Source: an uncultured Mediterranea sp.
GTDB lineage: Bacteria; Bacteroidota; Bacteroidia; Bacteroidales; Bacteroidaceae
Direction of reading: 5' to 3'
Assembly: GCA_945879145.1 (NCBI GenBank)
Contig: CAMCUZ010000004.1
Span: 1 to 64,000, forward strand
DNA length: 64,000 nt
The notes below the pieces were generated by a model. The model searched no databases and was not told the origin of the DNA. It worked only from the letters and a program-made list of their open reading frames with translations. How positions within the stretch are numbered: position 1 is the stretch's first letter; each line of letters opens with the position of its first letter. Both the position numbers and the translations under genes were made by a program. Shown piece by piece: positions 22,474-29,482 of the stretch.

Positions 22474-23637
22474 ATGAGCCTTTCACTATACGACAGCATA
22501 ATCTATGGCAACTTAAGAGAAGAAAAACTTAACGAACTGAAAACCACAAAAGATATTGGCCTGCTTAACCAAGAGATTTCTAAGCTGTGCTCGCAAAACA
22601 ATCTTCAACTCCATGAACTTGAAGAGCTTTTGGTGAATCTGATCGAAAAGGAGTATCTGGCCCTTTTATCGGATGACTATGAAAAAGACCGGAAGCTGCG
22701 TAAAGAGGCTGAGAAACAGCATAAAGCCTGTTACACGGCCTATAATGAATATCACATCTTCCGAGTGGACGCTCTGTTTGAAAGGAGCAGATATACCACT
22801 TGCTCAGACAGGCTATACAGCCTGCTCGGAATAGTGGACAACCTAAGAACCATGCTTCACTTAATCAAACTGGCTATTGCGGCAAAAAATGATGAAATCC
22901 TTCTAGGCGAAGTACGCAACGTGATGCTTCGAGTACTCCAATTGGCCGAATCTACAGAGATAAAGCGCATCAGAGAGTCGCTGATGATGCTCTACTTTAA
23001 CTTACTAGGTACTTTTTGGCACCTATTGCAATCGAATACCATGGGATTGTTTTACGAATTCTCAGAGACCTATCGTTTGTTTACCAATGAATATCCCCCC
23101 GAGGAGTTGGAGCGTGCATACCATAAGCTGATACAAAGCACATCGGATGCTCAGCGGAGTGCAGGGCAAACAGGACAACCCTCACAACCGGAGCCTCTGT
23201 CCGAGACGGGGGGAAACGAATGGGTTACGCGTTTCCTGACAGAAGCCAAAAAGTACCATTTTCAAGACCTGGAGAAAGTGAAAGCCCTGGATTCGGAGCA
23301 AAAGGTCAAGAAGCTGGTGGCCCGCATACTCGGTATGGATAGGTCCCTCGAACAGCCGGCGGCTTATGCGGCTGCGATTCTGGTATATCTGGGCTTCGAG
23401 AACTCGTTCAGTCTATATTATGATGGCCCGTTTACGCGAGCAAACTACGATAGATGGTGCGAACAAAACATCATGCGCTATCCCCCAGAGCGGGCCAAAG
23501 GGTGCGCCTTCAAGCACTACAGGCTCTCCGTACACCTGAATGCCAGAGAAGCCAGCGGCGGGAACTACAAATATAAAGGATGGTATTACTACGGTGGCAT
23601 AGTACAAAAAGAGTATCAAGAGATACTCAACGAATGA
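22474..23637 (+). CDS. Hypothetical protein, helical N-terminal region
   Basis: 387-aa ORF with coding-like composition; lower GC than neighbours; no family recognised with confidence. Confidence 0.6.
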   Translation: MSLSLYDSIIYGNLREEKLNELKTTKDIGLLNQEISKLCSQNNLQLHELEELLVNLIEKEYLALLSDDYEKDRKLRKEAEKQHKACYTAYNEYHIFRVDALFERSRYTTCSDRLYSLLGIVDNLRTMLHLIKLAIAAKNDEILLGEVRNVMLRVLQLAESTEIKRIRESLMMLYFNLLGTFWHLLQSNTMGLFYEFSETYRLFTNEYPPEELERAYHKLIQSTSDAQRSAGQTGQPSQPEPLSETGGNEWVTRFLTEAKKYHFQDLEKVKALDSEQKVKKLVARILGMDRSLEQPAAYAAAILVYLGFENSFSLYYDGPFTRANYDRWCEQNIMRYPPERAKGCAFKHYRLSVHLNAREASGGNYKYKGWYYYGGIVQKEYQEILNE

Positions 23638-23670
23638 TGAGCAAACGCTACGAATAGCGAAAAAACCTTA

Positions 23671-23736
23671 AAAGACCGCGAAAGACCAAAGACCAGAAAA
23701 AGACCAGAATCCACCGTCAGAAGACCAAAAAAGACC
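23671..23736. repeat. Iteron-like AAAGACC direct repeats (5 perfect + 1 GAAGACC)
   Basis: AAAGACC at 23671, 23681, 23688, 23699, 23730 and GAAGACC at 23720, just upstream of the 23788 CDS. Confidence 0.75.
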
Positions 23737-23787
23737 ATACATCTTTGCGTCACGGTTAGTTCCTCACATGGAATAACCATGACATTT

Positions 23788-24288
23788 ATGAACAATAAAA
23801 ATTCAAACAAGATGGCAGGGCAGAAAGAACAGTATCGCCCGAGCCGCGTAAGAGAGATTTTCACCGAGTATGTGAACAATAGTCAGGATGACGGTTTCCA
23901 CAAGCTCTTCGCCAACACAGAGCCGTGCATTACGCTCAAGTTCATCACCCGCAACCCGGGACGACTGGCCGAGGGCGAGTACCTCGCAGGCACCATCCTG
24001 CGCGATGGCCAGGAGCACTACACCTTCATCGAAGACATCGACAACCTGCCAGCCGCCGCATCGGCCACCTGCCCAGTGAAGGCTATCCAACCGCTGCGTA
24101 ACCCTATCATCTACCGCGGCAAGTACATCAACATCCACCGTGCGAAGGATGGCACCCTCTATCCCACCTTCTGCCGACCGCTGCTGAATGACGGATTCAC
24201 CATCGCGGACTTCTGCCGCGAAGCCGCCTGCGAGCTGTTCGCCATAGCAGGCCACGTAGAGAAGTTGATGCCTGGCATGAGCGCCTAA
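23788..24288 (+). CDS. Hypothetical protein of the primase-associated cluster
   Basis: ORF 23779..24288, likely start MNNKNSNKMAGQKEQYRPSRVREIF; same strand as the downstream primase genes. Confidence 0.6.
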   Translation: MNNKNSNKMAGQKEQYRPSRVREIFTEYVNNSQDDGFHKLFANTEPCITLKFITRNPGRLAEGEYLAGTILRDGQEHYTFIEDIDNLPAAASATCPVKAIQPLRNPIIYRGKYINIHRAKDGTLYPTFCRPLLNDGFTIADFCREAACELFAIAGHVEKLMPGMSA

Positions 24289-24302
24289 TACCGGCTGCAC
24301 AA

Positions 24303-24461
24303 CAGTCTCAGAGTCTCAGTCTCAGTTCAAAATTAAGTCACAATTCACATCTCAAACCCCTCTTATATCACTTATAACTAATTAATAATTAAATAGTTAT
24401 ATAATATAGAGAGGATGATGACCCACCTTAAAAACGAACTGAGACTCTGAGACTGAGACTG
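24303..24461. repeat. AT-rich segment bracketed by ~26-bp CTCAGAGTCTCAG-type imperfect inverted repeats
   Basis: cagtctcagagtctcagtctcagttc (24303-24328) vs gaactgagactctgagactgagactg (24436-24461); inner CCTCTTATAT (24359-24368)/AATATAGAGAGG (24403-24414). Confidence 0.75.
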
Positions 24462-24511
24462 CGGCCAACCTCTACAAACCCCAAAATAAACATCTAATTC
24501 CCTATAATGCA

Positions 24512-25849
24512 ATGAAATACGATATCTTTAGCAACACCGCTCCGCAGATGCCACGACCCGGTAAAGGCACCGAAATCTGCAAACTTATCCTCTCACAGAT
24601 TTCCAAAGACATGCGCGACCCCCTCATTCCGATGGTGATTCCGGCATTAGCGTCCCACTTATCCGAGGTGGAGTTCATGTACTCCGACAACGTTTTCTAC
24701 GAACTTTGTGGCCAAATGGGCCACTTGATAGGCCCTTCGGGCATCGGAAAACAGCAATTGACGCGTCTCATAGAGGCCGTTTGCCGCTCTTTTCGACAGC
24801 ATGATGAGACTGAGTTCGCGAAACTGGTGGATTGGCAACGGCAAATCAAGACCCGAGGGGCCAACAAGGAGAAGCCGGAACGGCCAGACGTGAGCTTCTG
24901 GTTCCCACCGGCCGACATGACCAATCCCGCCTTCCTGCAGAACGCCATGGCGTGCGAGAAGCTGGGCGCACGCACGCAGTACATCAACCTGCCTGAGGTG
25001 GAGATGGCCAACCGCATGTGCGGCGGACACAGCCAGGTGAGTCAGACCATCCGCAACATCTACGACCGGCAGCGGGCAGGAGCCCTGCGTGCCACAGCCG
25101 ACGGCGTGACTGGAAACCCCCTGCTACGGGTCAACATCACCTTCACCTCCACACCCGATGCGGCACGCCTCTTCTACCGCAAGGACCTGACCAACGGATT
25201 CTTCGGTCGAATCCCCTTCGCCTACAAGGCACGCGGCGAACGCAGCCCACGCATCCCCCGCCAAGGGCGGTACGAAGAGACCTTCCTCAAGAAGCTCGAC
25301 GCCTACCTCATCCGGCTGGACAACTGCAAGGGCAACTTCGTGGTGCCACAGCTCAACAAACTGGCTGACGACCTAGCCGCCGAGATGGCCCGCCTGGGTG
25401 ACCTGACAGACGATGATATGCTCTTTGAGCTCTCCCACCGCTGCATCTTCTCCGCCTGGAAGAAGGGGGCTACGCTCTGGATTCTCAACGACCAGACCTG
25501 GACACGCTCCATCGGTGAGTTCGTGGAGTGGTTCTGCTACTACGACCTCTGGAGCAAGATCATGGTCTTCGGCGACCTCTTCAAATTGGAGGATATTCCG
25601 TCAGCCGGCGGAAAGCAAAGCGGCCCGCAGAACATGCTGAACAACCTCGAAGACTCCTTCAACGAACAGCAACTGGAAGCCCTCCGCCTGAGTTTGGGCA
25701 AGGAGGTGACCAAGACCAAGCATCAGCTCAACGTCTGGAAAAACCGTGGCTTCATCACCTACTGCCCCCAGACGGGACTCTACAGCAAGACCCAGGAGTA
25801 CCTCAAGGGCTGCTCCAACAGGTGCAACAAAATCGAACAACCTAAATAA
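24512..25849 (+). CDS. DUF3987-like P-loop protein (putative primase-associated helicase/ATPase)
   Basis: GHLIGPSGIGKQQLTRLIEAVCRSF Walker A-like region; NITFTSTPDAARLFYRKDLTNGFFGRIPFAYKARG; adjacent to a CHC2 primase. Confidence 0.6.
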   Translation: MKYDIFSNTAPQMPRPGKGTEICKLILSQISKDMRDPLIPMVIPALASHLSEVEFMYSDNVFYELCGQMGHLIGPSGIGKQQLTRLIEAVCRSFRQHDETEFAKLVDWQRQIKTRGANKEKPERPDVSFWFPPADMTNPAFLQNAMACEKLGARTQYINLPEVEMANRMCGGHSQVSQTIRNIYDRQRAGALRATADGVTGNPLLRVNITFTSTPDAARLFYRKDLTNGFFGRIPFAYKARGERSPRIPRQGRYEETFLKKLDAYLIRLDNCKGNFVVPQLNKLADDLAAEMARLGDLTDDDMLFELSHRCIFSAWKKGATLWILNDQTWTRSIGEFVEWFCYYDLWSKIMVFGDLFKLEDIPSAGGKQSGPQNMLNNLEDSFNEQQLEALRLSLGKEVTKTKHQLNVWKNRGFITYCPQTGLYSKTQEYLKGCSNRCNKIEQPK

Positions 25850-25857
25850 CAAACGAT

Positions 25858-26808
25858 ATGATAGACCGTTTCCTTCTCCAAAGGCTGCGCTACCTCCCCA
25901 TCGAGGAGGTGGCCCAGCGCCTGGGGCTCACCGTGAAGCAGCACAAGAGCCTCTGCCCTTTCCACGACGACCAGCACCCTTCGCTCAGCTTCAGCATCCA
26001 GCGCAACACGTACCGATGCTTCGTATGCGGCGCACATGGAGGCACCATCGACCTCACCATGCACCTCCTGGGTAAAGACTTCACCCAAGCCTGCTACTGG
26101 CTGGCCGATGAAAACTGCATTCCTGAAAGACCCTCTCAATCCCCTTTAAAGGGGGAGGAAATGAAGCAGGCCCAGCCTCTCTTCGACCCCGTGCGCTATG
26201 CACGCCTCTTCGAACACCCCACGCTGAGCCCGGAGGCCTGCCGCTTCCTCTACGGGGAGCGACACATCGACCCCCGCGTAGTGAGCTGGTGCCGCCTGGG
26301 CAGCTGGCGCGACCGCAAGGGCATCAACTGGCTCCAAATCCCCTACTTCGACCCTAAGGGCCAACTCATCGGCATACAGAACCGCAACCTCGACAACCAA
26401 AGCCCCCGTTTCCGCTTCCCGCGTGGCAGCCGATGCAACTGCTACAACCTGCAGGTGATACGCCTGCTCCGACAGGGCGAACCGCTCTACATCACGGAGG
26501 GGTGCTCCGACTGCTGGGCCATGCTCTCGTCGGGCCGCAAAGCCATCGCCATCCCCAGCGCCTCCCTGCTCAACACCGAAGCGCTGCTCCAGGCCCTGGC
26601 CCAACTGCCGCCACACATCAGCACCAAGCTCACCCTCCACATGTACCCCGACCGCGACCTGCCCGGCGAGCGCCTCTTCCTGCAGCTGCAAGCCCTGCTC
26701 CCCACCCTGCAGCACCACCAGCTCCCCCCAGGATGTAAAGACTTCGGCGAAGCCTGGACCCAACAGCTGGCTCCACGCATCACCCCATCCCATGCTATTT
26801 CATCCTAA
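25858..26808 (+). CDS. DnaG-like DNA primase (CHC2 zinc finger + TOPRIM)
   Basis: CPFHDDQHPSLSFSIQRNTYRCFVCGAHGGTIDL (CHC2); LYITEGCSDCWAML and MYPDRDLPGERLFL (TOPRIM E and DxD). Confidence 0.85.
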   Translation: MIDRFLLQRLRYLPIEEVAQRLGLTVKQHKSLCPFHDDQHPSLSFSIQRNTYRCFVCGAHGGTIDLTMHLLGKDFTQACYWLADENCIPERPSQSPLKGEEMKQAQPLFDPVRYARLFEHPTLSPEACRFLYGERHIDPRVVSWCRLGSWRDRKGINWLQIPYFDPKGQLIGIQNRNLDNQSPRFRFPRGSRCNCYNLQVIRLLRQGEPLYITEGCSDCWAMLSSGRKAIAIPSASLLNTEALLQALAQLPPHISTKLTLHMYPDRDLPGERLFLQLQALLPTLQHHQLPPGCKDFGEAWTQQLAPRITPSHAISS

Positions 26809-26828
26809 AAAAAACCAAAGAGAACGAT

Positions 26829-27053
26829 ATGGAACAAACATTCACACAACGGGCCTACGCCAAACATGAGCTGGCCCTACGCTACTTCCCCCACTCCAGG
26901 ACCAAACGTGCGGCCGTGGCCCACTTCATGGAGATGATTCATCAGACCCGCGACCTCTATCCCGCCCTGCTCGCCCAGGGCTACAACAAGTACGCCAAGT
27001 GGTTCACCCCCAAAGAGGTACAGCTCATCACCCACTACCTCGGCGAGCCCTGA
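26829..27053 (+). CDS. DUF4248-like small protein
   Basis: 74 aa: MEQTFTQRAYAKHELALRYFPHSRTKRAAVAHFMEMI...GYNKYAKWFTPKEVQLITHYLGEP. Confidence 0.75.
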   Translation: MEQTFTQRAYAKHELALRYFPHSRTKRAAVAHFMEMIHQTRDLYPALLAQGYNKYAKWFTPKEVQLITHYLGEP

Positions 27054-27176
27054 CCCTGCCCCGAGCCCATACACGTTGCGGCAAATCGGACAGCGTACGC
27101 AAGAAAAAAAGGCCCGAAAAGTAACGGAAAACGCAGCCAAAGCAAGGCAACGACAGGGCGCGTCGGCAGAACGCAT

Positions 27177-27184
27177 TAACTTTG
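27177..27184 (+). promoter_or_regulatory. -7 element TAACTTTG upstream of the 27310 CDS
   Basis: Matches TAnnTTTG; no clear -33 TTTG seen. Confidence 0.4.
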
Positions 27185-27309
27185 CACCTGTGAAGAAAGG
27201 AGAAAAGCGCGCACCTCCTGCGGTACCCGAAGACATCCCGATGTCATCCCGAAGGCCATCGCTCCACACAGCTAACCCATTTGTTTAACAATTTAACCAT
27301 CAGCAAACT

Positions 27310-27792
27310 ATGGCAAGAATTACCCCCATCGATGTTATCAAGGGCATCAGCGGCAAGTACGGAAGCGGTTCGAACGACTACTTTGCCACCAACACCTCGA
27401 GTAACCGCATTCGCCTGGCCAAGTACGCCAACCCCTACCAGGGTCCCGCCACCGAGAAGCAGTTGGCCCAGCAAACCCGGTTTGCCACCCGTCAGGCTGT
27501 GGTAACCGCCTGGCTCAACGCCAACAAGCCCACCGCCGAAAACGGCACCAAGGGCACCGAGGCCTACCAGTACGTACAGAAGCTCAAGCGCCAGTACAAC
27601 CTGAGCAACATCTCGCAAGTGCTCTACAAGTACATGACCGACGAAAACGTCATCCAGCTGCCCGCCGCCAGCGGCGACACCAGCACCCCCGGTAGCGGCG
27701 GAAGCTCCGGAAGCGGCGGCAACCCCGGAAGCGGCGGCAACCCCGGAAGCGGCGGAAGCGATAGCGGCGGCGGCGATGCCGACATCGAGTGA
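27310..27792 (+). CDS. Uncharacterised protein with Gly/Ser-rich repeat tail (GSGGNP)
   Basis: MARITPIDVIKGISGKYGSGSNDYFATNTSSNRIRLAKYANPY...; tail GSGGSSGSGGNPGSGGNPGSGGSDSGGG. Confidence 0.7.
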   Translation: MARITPIDVIKGISGKYGSGSNDYFATNTSSNRIRLAKYANPYQGPATEKQLAQQTRFATRQAVVTAWLNANKPTAENGTKGTEAYQYVQKLKRQYNLSNISQVLYKYMTDENVIQLPAASGDTSTPGSGGSSGSGGNPGSGGNPGSGGSDSGGGDADIE

Positions 27793-27869
27793 CCATCAGG
27801 AACCGCAGAAGGCAATTCAATTTAAAATTTAAAATGAAGTGGATCTCTGCGGTTCCTAATCACTAAACA

Positions 27870-27955
27870 AGCTACAAGCTACAAGCTACGAGTGACGAGC
27901 TACGAGCTACGAGCTACAAGCTACAAGCTACAAGCTACGAGTGACGAGTTGTAGC
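27870..27955. repeat. Heptameric AGCTACR array (inverse orientation of 16592-16748)
   Basis: caagctacaagctacaagctacgagtgacgagctacgagctacgagctacaag... Confidence 0.85.
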
Positions 27956-28001
27956 CCTAATCCCTAATCCCTAATCCCTTATCCCTTATCCCTAATCCCT
28001 C
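27955..28001. repeat. CCCTAAT/CCCTTAT array (inverse of the TTTAGGG-type array)
   Basis: ccctaatccctaatccctaatcccttatcccttatccctaatccct. Confidence 0.85.
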
Positions 28002-28006
28002 CCCCC

Positions 28007-28111
28007 ATGACAGAAGAAAACAAAAAGAAATTGATCAAGTTCCTTTGGAATTTCATCACCTCGCTCATGACTGCCATTGGCACCGCCCTGGGCGTAAGCA
28101 GCTGTTTCTGA
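28007..28111 (+). CDS. 34-aa smalltalk-like small protein (missed by the ORF track)
   Basis: Direct translation: MTEENKKKLIKFLWNFITSLMTAIGTALGVSSCF*; resembles the tiny smalltalk proteins of this Bacteroidales gene neighbourhood. Confidence 0.75.
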   Translation: MTEENKKKLIKFLWNFITSLMTAIGTALGVSSCF

Positions 28112-28120
28112 ATTCACCCA

Positions 28121-28241
28121 CTTGTAGGGGCGCAATATCTTGCGCCCGGATGCACCCACCGTTTACACTCATACCGTTATAGGGTACACGTTGCTGTACA
28201 CGTTGCGGCACACAGGGCGGAAAATAGTCCGCCCCTACAAG
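28121..28241. repeat. GTAGGGGCG dispersed element, copy B
   Basis: CTTGTAGGGGCG ... CGCCCCTACAAG terminal inverted repeats; GGGCGCAATATCTTGCGCCC and GGGCGGAAAATAGTCCGCCC inside. Confidence 0.85.
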
Positions 28242-28286
28242 TAAGTAAACCTTATCCCTAATCCCTTATCCCTTATCCCTAATCCC

Positions 28287-28709
28287 ATGCTCCTCACACT
28301 TCAACGCACCATGCGGACCGACCGCTACACCATGGGCACCCTCGCCATCGACGGCACGCCCTTTTGCCACACGCTCGAACCCGTTGACCGGCAGCTCACG
28401 GCCGCCACCATCACACTCCAGCAGAAGGTGGTCGGGCAGACCGCCATCCCCACGGGTACCTACCCCATCCTGCTCAGCTACTCGCCCCGCTTCAAGCGCA
28501 CGCTGCCCCAGCTCTTCAGCGTGCCCTGCTTCGCGGGCATCCGCATCCACGCGGGCAACACCGTGGCCGACACCTCGGGGTGCATTCTGGTGGGTCGGTA
28601 CCTCTCCCCGGGACACCTCTGCGACAGCCGCGCCACGCTAGCCCAACTCATCAAACGCCTCTCCAGCTGCACTTCGGACAACCTCCCCTCCATCGAAGTA
28701 CGGGCATAA
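28287..28709 (+). CDS. DUF5675-like protein
   Basis: MLLTLQRTMRTDRYTMGTLAIDGTPFCHTLEPVDR...PTGTYPILLSYSPRFKRTLPQLFSVPCFAGIRIHAGNTVADTSGCILVG. Confidence 0.7.
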   Translation: MLLTLQRTMRTDRYTMGTLAIDGTPFCHTLEPVDRQLTAATITLQQKVVGQTAIPTGTYPILLSYSPRFKRTLPQLFSVPCFAGIRIHAGNTVADTSGCILVGRYLSPGHLCDSRATLAQLIKRLSSCTSDNLPSIEVRA

Positions 28710-28740
28710 GCGTAGGCCATTTTAGGATGAGGTTTATCCA

Positions 28741-28880
28741 CCTGTAGGGGCGCACTATCTTGCGCCCGGATGCACCCACGTTCACCACATACCCAGTTGC
28801 GGCATTCAGGGCGGAAAATATTAGCTTCGCTCAAAACATCTTATAAATTATTTCACTAAGGTATAGTCCGCCCCTACAAG
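28741..28880. repeat. GTAGGGGCG dispersed element, copy C, carrying a 45-bp insertion
   Basis: CCTGTAGGGGCG ... GTCCGCCCCTACAAG; relative to copy B the right hairpin is split by 45 nt at 28821-28865. Confidence 0.85.
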
Positions 28881-28885
28881 TAAGT

Positions 28886-28955
28886 AAACCTTATCCCTTA
28901 TCCCTAATCCCTTATCCCTAATCCCTTATCCCTTATCCCTTATCCCTAATCACTA
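28886..28955. repeat. CCCTAAT/CCCTTAT array
   Basis: aaccttatcccttatccctaatcccttatccctaatccctta... Confidence 0.8.
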
Positions 28956-29342
28956 CTCCATCTGGCTCCAGGCGGAACGGCCGTTGTAGCGAATCTGCAA
29001 CACAGCCCACCAGATGGCGATGTTGAACAGCGATGCGACCGACTGCACGGGATGATAATCGAGCAGGAGTAAGCACACCACCAACTCAGCCAGCGCAGAA
29101 GCCACAAACAGGTAGAAACCCAGCTTGCGCCAGCGCATCAGCAGCAGCGAAGCCACCACATTACAGCTGGCCAGCAGCACAAGTAACACCACCGTCCACA
29201 CGGGATATACCGGCTCCTCTGGATCAAGCAAGTTAATCACTTGCATCAGCACACTACCAGCATTTACCAGCAGCACTAGCCAAAGCCAAAACGTAACGCA
29301 ACCATGTCGTTGCTTCAAATCATTGTTTGTCATTTGATTCAA
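28953..29342 (-). CDS. Small multi-helix membrane protein
   Basis: 129 aa with about four hydrophobic segments: CVTFWLWLVLLVNAGSVLMQVI, VWTVVLLVLLASCNVVASLLL, LGFYLFVASALAELVVCLLLL. Confidence 0.6.
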   Translation of the reverse strand: MNQMTNNDLKQRHGCVTFWLWLVLLVNAGSVLMQVINLLDPEEPVYPVWTVVLLVLLASCNVVASLLLMRWRKLGFYLFVASALAELVVCLLLLDYHPVQSVASLFNIAIWWAVLQIRYNGRSAWSQME

Positions 29343-29358
29343 TTTAAAATTAAAAATT

Positions 29359-29403
29359 AAAGCACGCTTTTATTTTGTATTCCACTCGGCTTGCACTATC
29401 TTT
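29359..29403. repeat. 45-bp direct repeat, copy 1
   Basis: aaagcacgcttttattttgtattccactcggcttgcactatcttt, identical to copy 2. Confidence 0.9.
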
Positions 29404-29437
29404 TCATAACATAGGCTGCGCCTCGGGAATAAAAATA

Positions 29438-29482
29438 AAAGCACGCTTTTATTTTGTATTCCACTCGGCTTGCACTATCTTT
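29438..29482. repeat. 45-bp direct repeat, copy 2, containing a promoter
   Basis: Same 45 nt; adds TTTG (29453-29456)-N19-TATCTTTG (29476-29483). Confidence 0.9.

Follow-up and report, generated by a model that had tools for sequence, protein, structure and literature searches.

A probable chromosomal replication unit with an origin-like element and a genome-specific C-terminal tag in an uncultured Mediterranea sp.

A 64,000-nucleotide stretch of contig CAMCUZ010000004.1 from an uncultured Mediterranea sp. (hereafter the window) contains a block of genes that is probably a conserved miniature replicon located in the chromosome, equipped with a start site of its own and a starter protein to match. 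The putative start site is an inverted repeat at 24303-24461, between the genes U169 and H445; the candidate starter protein is the 445-amino acid (aa) product of H445. The window belongs to an 86-kb contig (C4); the genome, a 2.5-Mb one from Bacteroidaceae, holds two further DUF4248 loci. Open reading frame (ORF) calls and profile searches identified seven real ORFs in the block, spanning 23779-28709 (Table 1). All are on the plus strand and thus co-oriented, as an earlier reading made from the letters alone (the sequence-only reading) had stated. That reading had also proposed a replicon-like module without mobility genes. This description holds: the block combines an origin-like element, a predicted initiator that co-varies with it and a primase. 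No tyrosine integrase was found on the contig; serine recombinases and attachment sites were not searched.

Conservation of the unit

Relatives of H445 are present in named genomes (46 good matches and one marginal match), nearly all of them Prevotellaceae or Bacteroidaceae from rumen and gut. Segatella copri iA622 has two copies. In what follows, numbers with L denote loci, and G144 denotes one of the genomes. The homologous loci keep U169, H445 and primase in a constant order. U169 is found in about 37 loci at a nearly constant distance, and the primase is conserved 3' of H445 in 38. DUF4248 comes next after the primase in half of the homologous loci; of the 26 loci that offer enough sequence, 24 then have a HU-HIG or other tailed protein. 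Absence of synteny elsewhere had been set beforehand as the finding that could overturn the sequence-only reading; the comparison found the unit around H445 in more than 40 named Prevotellaceae or Bacteroidaceae loci. Because the unit around H445 recurs so often, it is neither a chance assembly nor a decaying fragment.

A second finding named there as able to overturn that reading was that the block is a decayed piece of a known mobile element. The unit is conserved, and H445 has no match in PLSDB (plasmids), INPHARED (phages) or IMG/VR (viral contigs); a phage origin of the H445 unit was rejected on these grounds. No structural phage PHROGs (capsid, portal, terminase) were found among the eight proteins tested.

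The DUF4248 genes of this genome sit behind three different replication sets. One is U169-origin-H445-primase, another pairs a Lin1244_N protein with one resembling Toprim/DnaB, and the third is a PriCT_2/DUF3987 protein. The tailed slot likewise takes HU-HIG or other domains that share one ending. This constant plan with swappable parts points to a functional unit. A second cassette-like region, L330 (C4:70000-86086), has a minus-strand gene for a 752-aa H445 relative, together with a smalltalk-like peptide and a 152-aa relative of the tailed protein described below.

Table 1. Features of the cassette and its surroundings (positions in the window)
Feature	Position	Strand	Remarks
387-aa protein	22474..23637	+	directly upstream, variable accessory slot; homologues in same position in L176 and L177 only
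AAAGACC cluster	23671..23736	+	5 exact copies in 66 bp; not conserved
U169	23779..24288	+	conserved small protein, 169 aa, 5' of origin-like element
Left iteron set	24306..24324	+	three TCTCA (24306, 24314, 24320)
AT-rich core	24361..24416	.	CTTATAACTAATTAATAATTAAATAGTTATATAATATA; presumed unwinding element; conserved in relatives
Right inverted iteron set	24440..24458	-	three TGAGA (24440, 24448, 24454)
H445	24512..25849	+	445 aa; P-loop GPSGIGKQQ and C-terminal winged-helix-like segment; predicted iteron-binding initiator helicase
Recognition helix of H445	25718..25753	+	residues 403-414, KHQLNVWKNRGF; H404, Q405, V408 and N411 track iteron sequence
CHC2/TOPRIM primase	25858..26808	+	DnaG type, 316 aa; PF01807 6e-15; phrog_47 DNA primase 2e-26
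DUF4248 protein	26829..27053	+	PF14053 2e-23
Tailed protein	27310..27792	+	160 aa; in slot usually held by HU-HIG
Gly/Ser tail	27667..27789	+	ends in DADIE tag (27775-27789)
Smalltalk-like peptide	28007..28111	+	hydrophobic, 34 aa; NF033879 19.3 bits, under 24.7 cut-off
MITE-like element, copy 1	28113..28249	.	
DUF5675 protein	28287..28709	+	accessory; PF18925 4e-30
MITE-like element, copy 2	28733..28888	.	copies 1 and 2 bracket the DUF5675 gene

Origin-like element and recognition helix

The inverted repeat is an origin-like element in which the TCTCA copies stand at set spacing in two opposed arms. The AT-rich segment that the sequence-only reading had seen between inverted repeats is real and conserved. 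A three-plus-three inverted array of some TNNCA word occurs in 54 of 64 homologous loci and in none of 1280 shuffled sequences. The words vary among loci (TCTCA, TCACA, TTTCA, TTCCA, TTACA, TGTCA, TGACA and TAACA); within one locus the copies agree, shifting in concert. The 24303-24461 element has no match in Rfam, and the string of right-arm iterons has none in IMG/VR.

A segment near the C-terminus of H445 reads as a winged helix, LEALRLSLGKEVTKTKHQLNVWKNRGFITY, and residues of its recognition helix follow the iteron word. All 41 loci whose iterons have C as base 2 carry histidine at residue 404; the 18 assigned loci in which base 2 is not C all lack it and have Arg, Lys, Gly, Ser, Asn or Ala there. 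Val408 goes with T at base 3, being present in every intact TCTCA locus and in all TTTCA loci but one; Lys408 is found in all five TTCCA loci, which have C at this base. Every intact TCTCA locus combines Gln405 with Val408, and not one of the ten TCACA loci does so. The latter have A at base 3 and carry small residues, or Leu405 with Tyr411. Independence was assessed on a tree built from H445 residues 1-385 only, leaving out the helix. For base 3 against residues 405/408, 5.6 of 6 supported independent pairs were concordant (median p 0.03, range 0.03-0.22 over pairings). For base 2 against residue 404 there were two independent pairs, both concordant. No residues of U169 or the primase track the iterons with comparable clarity.

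Since recognition-helix residues co-vary with the iteron words, the prediction that H445 recognises the iteron element is well supported. From the architecture we infer that this binding would start replication. H445 is very probably an origin-binding initiator helicase; the helicase call is based on the P-loop and remote similarity. The sequence-only reading had described H445 as a DUF3987-like P-loop protein. H445 has no Pfam match, DUF3987 (PF13148) included, and is about 30% identical to part of some proteins of about 780 aa, one of which has a sub-threshold DUF3987 match. Kinship to DUF3987 is therefore only remote.

Tailed protein and its C-terminal tag

The sequence-only reading had suggested that the position of the HU gene is occupied by another gene. 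This is the case: the 27310 product stands in this slot and shares its C-terminal ending with the HU-HIG proteins of its own genome. It has no significant family match outside its low-complexity tail in Pfam, NCBIfam or PHROGs; its NCBIfam and PHROGs scores fall mostly on that tail. No HU domain (PF18291) was matched by Pfam in this protein, and its AlphaFold2 (AF2) model is poor. The first 60 residues align weakly with DUF6266 (PF19781; hhalign E 0.006, probability 7%), so membership of DUF6266 is only suggestive and was not adopted. Three homologues with 67-68% identity are found in other genera, and their ends are not DADIE.

A search of the genome for DADIE followed by a stop codon gave eight sites; the reversed control gave none. 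The sites belong to four HU-HIG proteins, the 27310 product, its 152-aa relative 58 kb further on (in L330), a 324-aa protein behind the third DUF4248 gene and one probable fragment. This fragment (L334, C14:428), close to where a contig ends, is seemingly a tagged gene that has been broken. Each of the four Gly-tailed HU-HIG proteins of this genome ends in DADIE. Of 15 further genomes from the genus, a single one has a DADIE match; other species have different endings, namely EDPLG, ENPLG, EDPxA and KDPTA. The pattern [ED][DN]PLG-stop has 18, 14, 12, 10 and 7 copies in five genomes and 0-3 in the rest, with controls of at most two per genome.

The tag census combined pattern searches with the PF18291 family. 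As a pattern search fixes the residues that it counts, proteins were also chosen by N-terminal domain alone. In this choice, 34 of 36 Gly-tailed HU-HIG proteins in four genomes bear the tag of their genome, and the two exceptions differ slightly (GGSPLG and EEHPLG). HU-HIG proteins of the winged helix-turn-helix (wHTH) type have no tag. HU-HIG pairs with N-domain identity below 45% were then scored on their last six residues, which are 91% identical within a genome versus 26% between genomes; 0 of 5000 permutations reach this. Without one cluster of near-identical species the values are 88% and 40%. Near-identical orthologues of different species bear different tags, and DUF6266 proteins bear the same tag as the HU-HIG proteins of their genome. 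A DUF6266 profile that was extended automatically strayed onto HU tails; what it labelled 'D6266' is HU-HIG-like.

The tag ending depends on the genome and not on the protein family. At synonymous sites the tag varies, with 13 distinct sequences out of 15 in G144; third codon positions are free to vary, so it is the protein and not the DNA that is kept uniform, which points to selection acting at protein level. The simplest reading of this lineage-specific uniformity at protein level is that a partner encoded once per genome would read the tag terminus. Since the majority of tagged genes are not near a replication cassette, the tag may be a wider system that the cassette uses. The literature searched, on smalltalk, DUF4248, DUF3987 and HU tails, contains nothing on the cassette or the tag, and no description of a lineage-specific tag or of its sharing with DUF6266 proteins. 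Burroughs and colleagues reportedly described HU-HIG expansions with Gly-rich tails in 2017 and proposed a role in conflict.

Upstream region and U169

The 387-aa protein upstream of U169 has no match in Pfam, NCBIfam or PHROGs. In L158-L203 this slot is filled by several uncharacterised families of 280-400 aa, one of which is present in 11 loci; some loci have EcoRI-type adenine and C5 DNA methylases upstream of U169. The sequence-only reading called the AAAGACC repeats, which lie between the two genes, iteron-like. The cluster exists, and the window has 14 copies versus 7.2 expected. The cluster is, however, unconserved in relatives, and the conserved iterons of the cassette are the TCTCA/TGAGA sets. 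L176 and L177, the two loci with a homologue of the 387-aa protein, have GGTCT repeats in this place instead; GGTCT is contained in the reverse complement of AAAGACC. AAAGACC was rejected as a replication iteron because it is unconserved and tied to the type of upstream gene; it is probably regulatory.

U169 has no family match in Pfam, NCBIfam or PHROGs. Structure prediction, recommended with the sequence-only reading, worked well for its C-terminal domain and gave a model of the 27310 product that was too poor to search. The U169 domain has a beta-beta-beta-alpha fold in the AF2 model (predicted local distance difference test score about 88-97). It has no significant fold match in PDB, and the weak, non-significant ones are integrase arm-type domains. 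U169 is a possible DNA-binding accessory protein. It was rejected as iteron binder, having no clear residue pattern that follows the iteron class, in contrast to H445.

Primase and downstream genes

Profile searches bore out the assignments of primase, DUF4248 and DUF5675 made from sequence (E-values in Table 1). The primase also matches the PADLOC model RTasDnaG of a defence-associated reverse transcriptase (DRT) system (PDLC03800, 1e-52), which is the sole strong defence-model match.

The 34-aa peptide was called smalltalk-like; its score does not reach the family cut-off. Two more tagged genes in this genome are followed by near-identical peptides, making three in all, and the positional context of the 34-aa peptide agrees with smalltalk. 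Of 26 loci, 3 have a convincing smalltalk peptide and about 7 a wall-hydrolase-type gene, D5675 matches counted in. The DUF5675 product is a possible wall hydrolase; its gene is bracketed by repeats resembling miniature inverted-repeat transposable elements (MITEs). The sequence-only reading called the module lysis-like as well as replication-like. Lysis is not supported as a core feature, because the lysis genes are accessory, present in a minority of relatives, and the DUF5675 gene lies between MITE-like repeats.

The MITE-like repeat has inverted ends TTGTAGGGGCG...CGCCCCTACAAG and a further copy at C4:85857; copies come after smalltalk-like genes at two tagged loci. Degenerate tandem repeats of ACAAGCT/ACGAGCT and CCTTATCCCTAATCCC occupy the intergenic DNA next to the genes for the small peptide and DUF5675 (27867-27955, 28224-28286 and 28863-28960). 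Two 53-nt direct repeats, 98% identical, lie at 29351-29403 and 29430-29482, just 5' of the 29516 gene, and are possibly a duplicated promoter or leader.

Proposed function and alternatives

The explanation favoured here, with moderate confidence, is a chromosomal replication cassette resembling phage-inducible chromosomal islands (PICIs), including Staphylococcus aureus pathogenicity islands (SaPIs), or staphylococcal cassette chromosomes (SCCs), whose tailed protein would be docked through its tag to a partner specific to each genome. The C-terminal winged helix of H445 would bind the six TCTCA iterons at 24306-24458. Judging from architecture and families, H445 would then open the AT-rich core and load as a helicase, and the 25858 product would prime DNA synthesis. 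The tailed protein, HU-HIG in most loci and the 27310 product here, may handle the new DNA or the origin itself, while its C-terminal tag would dock onto a partner for which each genome has one gene and which all tagged proteins share. The smalltalk and wall-hydrolase genes would be accessory outputs. The probable ancestor of the cassette is a phage satellite or integrative element, which lost the genes for mobility and was retained by the host. A broader and rather doubtful possibility is a genome-wide C-terminal address system of Bacteroidaceae with a single reader partner, in which small proteins of unrelated families, mainly DNA-packing HU-HIG proteins, would carry a tag that is uniform in each species and different in others. 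In this cassette it would link a domesticated PICI-like replicon to that reader. Such a reader might be an export, compartment or anchoring machine, used for example in storage, release or destruction of amplified DNA.

Several observations weigh against the favoured explanation. The tag is also borne by HU-HIG proteins that have no replication genes in their neighbourhood, so the tag may have nothing to do with the replicon and merely coincide with it at this locus. The base-2 switches that can be counted as independent number only two. H445 is only remotely similar to any helicase family and has no sequence match in PDB. The element lies 5' of the predicted initiator gene, whereas the PICI origin lies 3'. 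Lastly, gene conversion as the origin of the uniform tag is disfavoured by the codon differences, though old events of this kind may have occurred.

It is unlikely that the block is a functionless remnant of a phage satellite, integrative and mobilizable element or prophage that keeps its replication genes by chance. DUF3987 is a predicted helicase of mobile elements, where primases with DUF3987-type helicases are typical (PMC5862659). The origin-like element is organised as in PICIs, some copies contain stop codons, and a predicted viral contig has a 53% relative of the primase at its end. However, element and recognition helix co-evolve and are intact in dozens of species, and the ORFs are mostly open, which indicates that selection has been maintained; nor does the remnant explanation fit the lack of a tyrosine integrase on the contig and of H445 matches in phage, plasmid and viral-contig collections. 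The arms of the element are able to pair and it stands directly 5' of the H445 gene. It might thus be an operator or RNA attenuator, with H445 an autoregulating regulator or ATPase and not a replication protein. Direct repeats within one arm nevertheless shift together and follow the protein helix, which favours binding of duplex DNA over RNA pairing; with no Rfam match, and with an AT-rich core and adjacent primase that suit an origin, regulation of this kind is improbable.

There is also a slim chance that the cassette serves defence or abortive infection, using local DNA amplification, a tagged DNA-binding protein and a lytic peptide against invaders. Variable uncharacterised genes and methylases occur near the module in some loci and would suit this role, as would the RTasDnaG match of the primase and the conflict role reportedly proposed for HU-HIG expansions. 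Against it, no reverse transcriptase or known effector was identified among the eight proteins tested (no search aimed at reverse transcriptases was made), the other genes have no convincing defence model, and lytic genes are missing from most loci. Repeated gene conversion between paralogues of one genome, in place of a docking signal, is a similarly weak candidate for the uniform tag. Repetitive tails favour recombination and paralogues are many; yet synonymous sites of the tag are highly varied within a genome, and the tag is common to domains without detectable homology (HU-HIG, DUF6266 and the 27310 type).

A recurrent, unexplained Bacteroidales neighbourhood thus becomes testable through a specific origin-like element and a specific predicted initiator. 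The base-to-residue code, linking residue 404 with base 2 and residues 405/408 with base 3, predicts swaps that change specificity. The species-specific tag on non-homologous proteins predicts an undiscovered receptor that could be fished for directly. The PICI-type origin layout in conserved chromosomal loci, here on a contig without a tyrosine integrase, suggests that abundant bacteria of gut and rumen harbour satellites that are domesticated or have gone unrecognised.

Comparison with known systems

In PICI origins an AT-rich region is flanked by two iteron sets, an arrangement termed unique to PICIs (PMC6092414). The cassette shares this layout, as known from its sequence organisation, and has an adjacent primase. 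SaPI Rep and SCC Cch2 bind iterons via their C-terminal domain (PMC7581432), and the same mode of recognition is predicted for H445. Unlike the AEP-type primase of SaPIbov1 and SaPI5, the primase of the cassette is of the CHC2/TOPRIM type. There is no detectable sequence kinship between the helicases, no phage-interference or packaging gene was recognised in the cassette, and its contig lacks a tyrosine integrase.

SCC elements (Cch/Cch2) likewise have an initiator-type helicase with a C-terminal DNA-binding domain and 5-nt iterons (AAGTG for Cch2), and an operon with a small protein and a priming enzyme. The cassette has two opposed iteron sets, in contrast to the three direct repeats of SCC; no ccr recombinases were recognised in it, and the helicase and primase families differ. 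DUF3987/VirE primase-helicases resemble H445 through the partial alignment to proteins of about 780 aa. H445 differs from them as a stand-alone protein below Pfam detection, with a separate primase and its own origin-like element. HU-HIG proteins (PF18291; HU with a wHTH, Ig or Gly-rich motif) fill the neighbouring slot in most loci, and Gly-rich tails are a recognised feature of this family; the 27310 product shares such a tail and differs in having no detectable HU domain.

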